From positions 1 to 35,831 of the IMG/VR virus record IMGVR_UViG_3300025070_000110: DNA of 35,831 bases; one strand, given 5' to 3'. The translations under genes and the position numbers were made by a program. The stretch's first letter is position 1. Every line of letters starts with the position of its first letter. The notes beneath the pieces are model-generated. The model made no database searches, was not told where the DNA came from, and was given only the letters and a program-made list of their open reading frames with translations. Below, piece by piece: positions 17,491 to 18,905 of the stretch. Source of the stretch: a virus.

Positions 17491-17564
17491 CTCCATAGTT
17501 CGTTCATCCGAAAGGACGCATCTACTCAGTGCATGGAACGGGGCCTGAGCCTATGGAGTTTCCA
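17491..17564 (+). promoter_or_regulatory. Glutamine-II (downstream-peptide motif) riboswitch
   Basis: A structured RNA directly after the scaffold stop. CGTTC (17501-17505) pairs with GAACG (17536-17540); inside it TCC-GAAA-GGA (17507-17516) forms a short hairpin; CTCAG (17525-17529) can pair with CTGAG (17545-17549), which crosses the first helix and gives a pseudoknot. The conserved blocks CGTTCATCC, GGACGCA and GGAACGGGG match my recollection of the downstream-peptide motif, shown to bind glutamine. An outer stem CTCCATAG/CTATGGAG (17491-17498/17551-17558) encloses all and contains the GGAG ribosome-binding site of the next ORF. A short ORF with YRG follows, as in the family. Confidence 0.88.
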
Positions 17565-17666
17565 ATGACTGACATTCAAGTCCAGCAAGCGGTTCGCCTT
17601 CAGAAGGCTGCCAAAAAACAAACTAAGCTCACCTATCGTGGTGTCCAGTACTTATTGTCTAAGTAA
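17565..17666 (+). CDS. 33-aa downstream peptide (YRG type)
   Basis: A 33-aa basic peptide starting MTDIQVQQAVRLQKAAKK and ending with LTYRGVQYLLSK. GGAG (17555-17558) lies 6 bases before the ATG, inside the closing stem of the riboswitch. Peptides after this RNA class in cyanobacteria are short and often have a LTYRG-x-x-Y element (related to DUF4278-type proteins), so the identification is strong. Some small cyanobacterial proteins under glutamine riboswitch control act on nitrogen metabolism (glutamine-synthetase inactivating factors, PirA). Whether this peptide binds GS, PII or something else is not known. Confidence 0.82.
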   Translation: MTDIQVQQAVRLQKAAKKQTKLTYRGVQYLLSK

Positions 17667-17903
17667 GCTTAAAAACTTTTCCTTATAAATTCCCAAGGAC
17701 GGTTATGGAATCTAGGACCGGAAAAGCCTAGATCCCCGGAGAGAGGGCACCTCAGTGTCGGACCCTCTCTTCATTTGCCATTCGAGCCCGGATAGTCCGA
17801 GACAACTCGTTTGGTGCTAGCGCCAAGTTGATGGCCCTAAATCAACAAACACATACGCGTAAGTGAGCTTCATATAAACAAACTTTTTTAATTTTATCTA
17901 ATC
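17667..17903 (+). promoter_or_regulatory. Structured leader of the capsid gene (five hairpins)
   Basis: No gene is seen in this 237-base gap. It folds by eye into serial hairpins: GGA(A)TCTAGG/CCTAGATCC (17707-17735); AGAGAGGG/CCCTCTCT (17740-17770) with an inner CAC/GTG; CGAG/CTCG (17783-17809) enclosing CGGA/TCCG; TTGGTG/CGCCAA (17811-17826); GTTGAT/ATCAAC (17827-17846). None is followed by a T run, so they are not typical terminators. An A/T-rich stretch leads to the capsid ATG, without a Shine-Dalgarno. A capsid promoter or RNA-processing site may be here, but no promoter is recognisable. Confidence 0.6.
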
Positions 17904-18905
17904 ATGGCTTTTCCTGATTATCCAATGGCCAGGCCGAACTCGGTCAATGGCAACCAATCAAATGCGTACGCTGATAAGTACGCAACAGCTTTAACCTTAT
18001 TCAGTGGAGAGGTGTTCAATGCCTTCAACTCCGCTACAATTTTCAAAGGACTTGTCCGTAACTATACACTTAGAGGCGGCAAATCAAAACAGTTCTTGAT
18101 GCAAGGGAAGCTCGGTGCGGGCTATCATACGCCTGGAACACCGATCGTAGCTGACGCTGCAATCAAGGCAAATGAAAAGACAATCATCATGGATGATTTG
18201 TTGATTTCTAGTCAATTTGTCTATGGACTTGATGAGATTTTGAGCCAGTATTCTCAACGCTCAGAGATTTCCAAGCAAATCGGTGAAGCTCTTGCCCTGC
18301 ACTACGATGATCGTATCGTGCGTGTGCTTGCTAAGGCAGCTACCGAAGCTTCTCCTGTTACAGGTGAGCCTGGTGGATTCCAAGTCAACATTGGCTCTGG
18401 TAACACCAACAACGCTCAAGCAATTGTTGACGGATTCTTTGAAGCCGCTGCAGTGCTCGACGAGCGCTCAGCACCCCAGGAAGGCAGGGCCTGTTGCCTT
18501 TCTCCTCGTCAATATTATTCTTTGGTTTCTAGCGTCGATACAGGAATCCTGAATCGCGAAATTGGAAACTCTCAAGGTGACATGAATAGCGGCAAGGGTC
18601 TCTACTCTATTGCTGGTATTCGTATCTATAAGTCCAATGTATTGGCAACTCAGTACGGTAAGGACGCAACTGATAATGCTTCTGTCACTGGCGAAAATAA
18701 CAGCTATGTGATTGATAACAGCAATCTTGCCGGACTGGTGTTTCATAAAGAAGCTGCTGGAACTGTTGAAGCTGTTGCTCCATCAATCCAGACCACAAGT
18801 AATGACTTCAATGTCCAATACCAAGGAGATTTGGTCGTGGGACGTTTAGCTCTCGGCTGCGCATCCTTGCGTACTTCAGTAGCTGGATCTTTCCAAGCTG
18901 CTTGA
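17904..18905 (+). CDS. Major capsid protein, T7 gp10-like
   Basis: The 333-aa HK97-fold shell protein (T7 gp10A is 345 aa). The N-terminal third aligns by eye with T7: ALTLFSGEVFNAFNSATIF, then GGKSKQFLMQGK, AYHTPG-like GYHTPGTPI, KTIIMDDLLISSQFVYGLDEILSQY and SEISKQIGEALALHYD. The C-terminus (VGRLALGCASLRTSVAGSF) is also characteristic. It has a long structured leader and its own terminator, consistent with the highest expression in the late region. Only one reading frame product is seen; there is no obvious frameshift extension. Confidence 0.97.
   Translation: MAFPDYPMARPNSVNGNQSNAYADKYATALTLFSGEVFNAFNSATIFKGLVRNYTLRGGKSKQFLMQGKLGAGYHTPGTPIVADAAIKANEKTIIMDDLLISSQFVYGLDEILSQYSQRSEISKQIGEALALHYDDRIVRVLAKAATEASPVTGEPGGFQVNIGSGNTNNAQAIVDGFFEAAAVLDERSAPQEGRACCLSPRQYYSLVSSVDTGILNREIGNSQGDMNSGKGLYSIAGIRIYKSNVLATQYGKDATDNASVTGENNSYVIDNSNLAGLVFHKEAAGTVEAVAPSIQTTSNDFNVQYQGDLVVGRLALGCASLRTSVAGSFQAA

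Follow-up and report, generated by a model that had tools for sequence, protein, structure and literature searches.

Sequence comparison points to a structured, covarying RNA family with an exchangeable tRNA slot in the capsid leader of T7-like cyanophages

Results

Genetic organization of the capsid locus

The DNA analyzed (hereafter, the window) is the 35,831-base virus record IMGVR_UViG_3300025070_000110, which comes from a marine, T7-like phage. The gap between its scaffold and capsid genes forms a 237-nt capsid leader (17667–17903); to our knowledge, no promoter has been recognized in this gap in T7-like cyanophages. The features of the locus, including five serial hairpins, are summarized in Table 1. 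A glutamine-II riboswitch aptamer and a small “downstream peptide” ORF, belonging to a class described previously (PMC2864571), precede the leader.

Table 1. Features of the capsid leader and its surroundings in the window, and group I introns in related capsid loci.
Feature	Position	Strand	Details
Glutamine-II riboswitch aptamer (neighboring module, outside the element)	17498–17549	+	Rfam RF01704, 44.7 bits (gathering threshold 33)
Small ORF, “downstream peptide” type	17565–17666	+	MTDIQVQQAVRLQKAAKKQTKLTYRGVQYLLSK; read from the sequence
H-type pseudoknot (module 1)	17676–17733	+	S1 17676–17682 (CTTTTCC)/17720–17726 (GGAAAAG); S2 17710–17716 (ATCTAGG)/17727–17733 (CCTAGAT)
Stem 1	17710–17716/17727–17733	+	7 bp; read from the window
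Stem 2	17738–17747/17763–17772	+	10 bp, one G.U
Slot occupant (module 2), 10-bp hairpin	17738–17772	+	stem 17738–17747/17763–17772; loop 17748–17762 CACCTCAGTGTCGGA; inner CC:GG pairs
Slot/leader junction	17773–17776	+	
P1	17777–17815	+	17777–17780 (GCCA)/17812–17815 (TGGT)
Core (module 3)	17783–17809	+	P2 17783–17786/17806–17809; unpaired C 17787; P3 17788–17792/17796–17801; 3′ loop ACAA 17802–17805
Stem 3	17783–17786/17806–17809	+	encloses P3 hairpin 17788–17801; read from the window
P4	17811–17826	+	near-palindromic TTGGTG-CTAG-CGCCAA; shares 17812–17815 with P1, mutually exclusive
Stem 4	17811–17816/17821–17826	+	6 bp, one G.U
P5	17827–17846	+	GTTGAT (17827–17832)/ATCAAC (17841–17846); loop GGCCCTAA
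Stem 5	17827–17832/17841–17846	+	6 bp
Second palindrome	17854–17861	+	TACGCGTA; between the element and the start codon
Major capsid protein gene (T7 gp10-like)	17904–18905	+	tblastn, 79% identity to the major capsid protein of Synechococcus phage Syn5
Group I introns	L064 3868–4099; L116 3400–3627; L124 2708–2916; L152 986–1212; L154 2366–2594		RF00028
Group I introns	L117 1831–2057; L159 2690–2914; L189 and L192 3430–3654; L201 1085–1309		RF00028

The glutamine-II riboswitch, or downstream-peptide motif (RF01704), adjoins the hairpin element of the window, as it does in many relatives, and it had been suggested that riboswitch and hairpins form a single element. This proposal was not supported: the glutamine-II model has a sole match in the window, outside the hairpins, and many element-bearing leaders (Syn5 L081, L083, L022, L149, L196, L200 and L074), as well as the core-bearing roseophage leader L430, give no match to it. 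The upstream riboswitch is thus a separate module.

In related phages, small group I introns (Rfam RF00028, 75–99 bits, ~210–230 nt) split the major capsid gene at three or more different sites, accompanied by breaks in the protein. S-CBP2-like phages carry an abiF RNA (RF03085) 5′ of the capsid leader (L172, 2251–2287, 52 bits; L209, 2209–2247, 34 bits), a phage-borne relative of an abortive-infection RNA that possibly serves as a decoy or antidote.

Collection of capsid leaders and database searches

Capsid loci were fetched from IMG/VR with the capsid proteins of the window, Syn5, SS120-1 and S-CBP2, and named phages were added. After removal of near-duplicates, the 232 upstream regions yielded 143 nonredundant leaders. 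The alignment of the window subtype comprises 23 leaders and the core alignment (A3) 38 dissimilar copies. P3 pairing was used in finding the latter, so P3 counts are biased; pairing in P1, P2, P4 and P5 was not a selection criterion. The counts leave out the alignment of the largest subtype (A2), in which P3 and P5 are out of register, and those for module 1 come from a direct stem test that replaced a MAFFT alignment (A4).

A DNA similarity search with the leader returned no informative long match. When 4227 Rfam families were compared at relaxed thresholds with the leaders of the window, P-SSP7, L257 and L430, no credible match was found within the element; matches in other leaders were confined to tRNA occupants and the upstream abiF, and no family covers module 1 or the core (module 3). 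A Pistol ribozyme, considered because of the sequence GGGCCACGTTAAATA in L197, was rejected (no Rfam match at E values up to 3), as were twister and twister-sister ribozymes, considered from sequence fragments (no match). Among the results listed in searches of the open-access literature, no report of the element was found. Comparison of the 143 leaders shows a new, structured and strongly covarying RNA whose modules 1 and 3 match no Rfam family.

Conservation of the five hairpins

The original prediction placed at least five short stems in a row within 17702–17846, none with a T tract. All five can be read from the window, and no T/U tract follows any of them there; an intrinsic terminator was rejected on this ground. 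The predicted folding energy of the 237-nt leader is −61.4 kcal/mol, compared to −51.3±4.6 kcal/mol for shuffled sequences (z −2.2), and 6 of 200 shuffles folded as well as the leader; by itself, this is a weak and only suggestive sign of structure. Since the energy is only modestly better than that of shuffles, the question was settled by comparison of leaders. In the 23 aligned window-type leaders, 99.5% of the cells of P1, P2, P3 and P5 are paired (80% in shuffles) and 76 double-sided changes are present (23 in shuffles), with 10 of the 16 pairs altered on both sides. Sliding the partner columns by 1–3 positions reduced pairing to 30–43%. Covariation, set beforehand as the check that might refute the structure, was therefore found, the structure is conserved, and this comparative evidence is decisive for regarding the five hairpins as genuine.

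Two aspects of the predicted arrangement had to be revised. Each stem is conserved, but the five cannot all form simultaneously with P1, because P1 and P4 share a strand. Stem 1 does lie inside the predicted stretch, but it is part of an H-type pseudoknot (module 1) whose partner strand lies upstream of it. Module 1 was seen in close relatives, 5′ of the slot described below; both of its stems are retained in 21 of 23 of these, with compensatory changes (CTTTTCC/GGAAAAG, CTTCCGG/CCGGAAG, CTTTCCG/CGGAAAG and CCCCCTAT/ATAGGGGG), and 9 of 230 shuffles scored as high.

The hairpin core

The core, present in almost all leaders, has the pattern G-C-[P3 with UNCG or GNRA loop]-AYAM-C within helix P2, where P3 carries either a UNCG-like loop on 3–6 bp or a GNRA-type loop on a shorter stem. 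This pattern was found in 118 of the 143 leaders (0.35 expected from dinucleotide shuffles). P2 and P3 together show 104 double-sided changes versus 35 in shuffles among the 38 dissimilar copies, P3 being biased by selection. The unpaired core bases, C x AYAM, are near-invariant in cyano- and roseophages.

A covariance model of the core (R1) was run on whole genomes. It matched the capsid leaders of Syn5 (E = 2e-8), SS120-1 (3e-8), P-SSP7 (4e-5), roseophage CRP-125 (2e-5) and S-RIP2 (1e-3), and gave weak matches to those of S-CBP2 and S-CBP3 (E = 0.5 and 1), with one higher-scoring match inside the RNA polymerase gene of S-CBP2. Nothing significant was found in a T7 half-genome (E = 3.6) or in a T4-like stretch. 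The core of the window is divergent: with filtering off, its 9.7-bit match (17782–17810) was the best in the leader, and it was missed at the default filter. The low score is due to the single bulged A in P3.

R1 also matched immediately 5′ of the capsid gene in 37 of 43 roseophage-type loci. No T-arm (see below) is evident before the core in these phages, where a different upstream hairpin is found: in L382–L435, a conserved hairpin, GCC-TCTTTA-GGC, replaces the tRNA slot ~30 nt 5′ of the core. Since roseophages keep the core without an evident T-arm, tRNA processing cannot explain it there, and the core must serve a separate function, for which 5′-end protection and a regulator-binding switch are candidates.

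Alternative pairing of P1 and P4, P5 and palindromes

P1 is paired in 23 of 23 window-type leaders, its third pair being UA in 13, CG in 9 and AU in 1; a G.U occurs at pair 5-43. Pair 40-53 of P4 (AU 13, GC 9, UA 1) switches type together with this third pair. Strands A (GCCN), B (NGGU) and C (GCCN) thus covary three ways, with B able to pair with either A or C; such three-strand covariation is the direct signature of two alternative folds, which we predict for the leader RNA.

P5 is paired in all 23 leaders, with double changes in five of its six pairs. Its loop may form a pseudoknot (GGC, 17833–17835, with GCC of strand C, 17822–17824) that fits 41 of 43 leaders; random cross-group loops also pair often, so this is only suggestive. 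A model of the window subtype recovered Syn5 (E = 9e-23) and the window, both of which are in its seed. The largest subtype retains a GANAGA loop in P5, while the two strands of the stem change in step (GTGG/CCAC, GTAGG/CCTAC, GTCTG/CAGAC and others). P5 of this subtype reads GGGAnnGACCACAA and, for instance in L257 (~2976–2998), GGTGGGATAGACCACAA; both resemble the start of the T7 phi10 transcript (GGGAGACCACAACGG).

The leaders are rich in perfect palindromes (107 of at least 12 nt, compared to 8.3 in shuffled leaders; 334 of at least 8 nt, compared to 129), and nearly every palindromic center is used by those of at least 12 nt. The center of the P4 loop is self-complementary in 23 of 23 leaders. 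The element ends ~57 nt 5′ of the start codon in the window, and neither a terminator nor a sequestered start was seen.

The tRNA slot

In relatives of the window, the unit directly upstream of the core region is interchangeably a tRNA, a tRNA-like minihelix or a short hairpin; tRNAs of several types are its occupants in a second group of leaders. A T-arm hairpin occupies this slot in 74 of the 143 leaders, compared to ~0.5 in shuffles, and an acceptor-like stem usually closes it. Acceptor and T-stem together most commonly total 11–12 bp, and the distribution has its maximum at the 12 bp typical of tRNA (31 versus 7.3 expected), although the acceptor stems of some minihelices are only 3–5 bp. 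Many of the short minihelix linkers contain a D-loop-like UGGUG; such bases of the D-loop contact the T-loop in tRNA. Complete tRNAs were detected in the slot at default settings (Trp in L072, Cys-type in L195, Asn in L241) and at relaxed settings (Thr in L229 and His-type in L246, among others), some of the relaxed calls being surely loose. The TTG that opens the leader starts within 1–2 bases of the tRNA discriminator base.

The window-type hairpin, with the loop CACCTCAGNGTNGGA, is present in 31 of the 143 leaders. A scan of IMG/VR for this loop gave at least 120 stretches, 80 of which were fetched: 68 are followed on their own strand by a T7-like capsid gene at a distance of at most 600 nt, and in 70 the core is within 260 nt of the loop, usually ~21 nt downstream. 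The exact loop had 11 scattered matches in genome contigs among 85,000 cellular genomes, none of them cyanobacterial, and a cellular origin was rejected for this reason.

Natural swaps of the occupant were identified. The leaders of L063 (window-type hairpin) and L072 (complete tRNA-Trp) are 100% identical, and those of L009, L011 and L064 are 95–99% identical behind three different occupants. ARAGORN found no tRNA in the window, and the 15-nt loop of the window hairpin is not a canonical T-loop (TTCRANY/TGCAANY type); its helix has 10 bp plus two inner pairs, compared to mostly 11–12 bp in relatives. That this hairpin acts as a tRNA mimic is suggested by slot exchangeability.

Two further arrangements were observed at the slot. 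In P-SSP7 (L253, 20522–20690), it is immediately preceded by a glutamine-II riboswitch and an ORF for a short peptide (MKVTFVYRGVAYTRVIG), the 3′ end of the ORF overlapping the tRNA-like element. On the single contig comprising L270 and L072, a hairpin and leader start are followed by a complete tRNA-Trp and another leader start; the arrangement looks like the insertion of a tRNA unit through duplication.

Discussion

The comparisons above suggest that the scaffold-capsid gap encodes a modular cis-acting RNA whose upstream unit is a tRNA slot, filled by a tRNA, a tRNA-like minihelix or, in the window, a hairpin that replaces them. Exchangeability with tRNAs at a constant junction makes recognition as tRNA the best reading, with RNase P and RNase Z as the simplest candidates. 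As the best explanation, to which we give about even credence, host tRNA enzymes would cut at the slot and leave a capsid mRNA whose 5′ end is structured. The slot unit would be recognized by the tRNA-maturation enzymes of the host, with RNase P cutting on its 5′ side and RNase Z or another 3′ nuclease on its 3′ side. Cutting of the scaffold-capsid transcript would then produce a capsid mRNA starting near UUG, directly followed by the folded leader (the P1/P2/P3 core, P4 or P1, and P5). This leader might protect a monophosphorylated 5′ end against both RNase E and the 5′–3′ exonuclease RNase J, and very high capsid expression would thereby be uncoupled from scaffold expression. Cyanobacteria possess RNase P, RNase Z, RNase E and RNase J, the last of which degrades RNA that bears no 5′ triphosphate (PMC10989914); model hairpins consisting of acceptor stem, T-stem and T-loop suffice for RNase P cutting in vitro (PMC11143913). 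Of the roles originally proposed for the hairpins, RNA processing or stability sites for the capsid mRNA thus agree in kind with a conserved, covarying structure whose upstream unit is exchangeable with tRNAs and minihelices, the processing itself being presumed; a second structured regulator is likewise supported in kind by the conserved, covarying structure.

That C x AYAM is unpaired yet near-invariant, and that P1 and P4 are alternatives, suggests a function beyond that of a passive 5′ cap. The leader may instead be a regulatory switch, in which binding of a small ligand or of a phage protein (scaffold, capsid or RNA polymerase) to the C x AYAM core shifts the balance of P1 and P4 and sets capsid translation or mRNA decay, the slot being a separate module. 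Three-strand covariation of P1 and P4, core bases kept across cyano- and roseophages despite their different hosts, and the possible P5-loop pseudoknot all speak for such a switch, which we nevertheless consider rather unlikely: it has no obvious expression platform, given the distance to the start codon and the lack of a visible terminator or sequestered start, and a switch in the core leaves the exchange of tRNA, minihelix and hairpin unexplained. An action on transcription (pausing, cis antitermination or a promoter for the phage RNA polymerase) would recall T7, which has promoter phi10 in the same gap and whose phi10 transcript start P5 of the largest subtype resembles. However, compensatory changes preserve pairing and not sequence, and the Syn5 promoter sequence was found elsewhere in Syn5 but not in its capsid gap, which makes this explanation improbable.

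The slot might also be an attachment site or a landing site for tRNA genes, the tRNAs serving decoding or integration and the T-arm hairpins being remnants. Complete tRNAs do occur in it, and T7-like cyanophages encode integrases. Remnants should decay, yet the length of acceptor plus T-stem and the D-loop-like motif are kept; moreover, a non-tRNA hairpin with a constant loop, absent from cyanobacterial genomes in the 85,000-species scan, occupies the same place in many phages, and we regard a landing site as very improbable. Similarly little probability is assigned to the proposal that the palindromes let one leader RNA pair with another: it would fit their excess, the use of nearly every palindromic center and the self-complementary center of P4, but the P4 hairpin explains the stem part equally well, and we know of no precedent for such a homodimer in the mRNA leader of a dsDNA phage.

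The proposed processing at the slot can be compared with known systems. In T7, phage mRNA undergoes endonucleolytic maturation at RNase III sites, and gene 10 mRNA is very abundant. The T7 gene 10 leader resembles the present element in its genomic junction and as the structured 5′ end of a very abundant capsid mRNA, but the T7 gap contains promoter phi10 and R1 found nothing significant in T7. T7-type RNase III sites are cut at an internal loop within a long duplex; the leader helices are shorter than these signals, and P3 (2–6 bp) was judged too short.

In mitochondria, tRNAs lie between coding regions, and their proposed excision by tRNA-processing enzymes frees the mRNAs (PMC8601606, PMC4394434). 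The present element would work in a similar way, but it concerns a single junction of a phage, and its occupant may be a minihelix or a non-tRNA hairpin; it is not filed as a member of tRNA punctuation, because the window hairpin lacks the T-loop and because excision is presumed. C4 antisense RNA and M3 RNA (PMC11143913) are phage RNAs that RNase P cuts, and the present element resembles them as a phage RNA with tRNA-like features and a proposed RNase P substrate, but those are small regulatory RNAs, whereas here the 5′ leader of the capsid mRNA carries swappable occupants. The cyanophage leader RNAs PhotoRC-II, wcaG and manA (PMC2864571) are likewise structured cis RNAs found by covariation. 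They belong to other genes, and the capsid leader has no Rfam match to any of them.

Our general proposal, advanced tentatively and with slightly more doubt than belief, is that T7-like cyanophages use tRNA punctuation, the capsid mRNA having its 5′ end marked by an exchangeable unit (tRNA, mini-tRNA or evolved hairpin) behind which lies a new, bistable RNA family shared with roseophages, so that host tRNA-processing enzymes would help to set the capsid:scaffold ratio. T7-like cyanophages are among the most abundant viruses in the ocean. The conserved leader and tRNA slot would offer a directly testable answer to how far more capsid than scaffold is made from one gene block, for which the natural slot swaps provide a sharp genetic handle. 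The element would represent a new RNA family beyond Rfam, with minimal tRNA mimics kept by selection, and phage tRNA genes may persist as processing signals, beyond their role in decoding.
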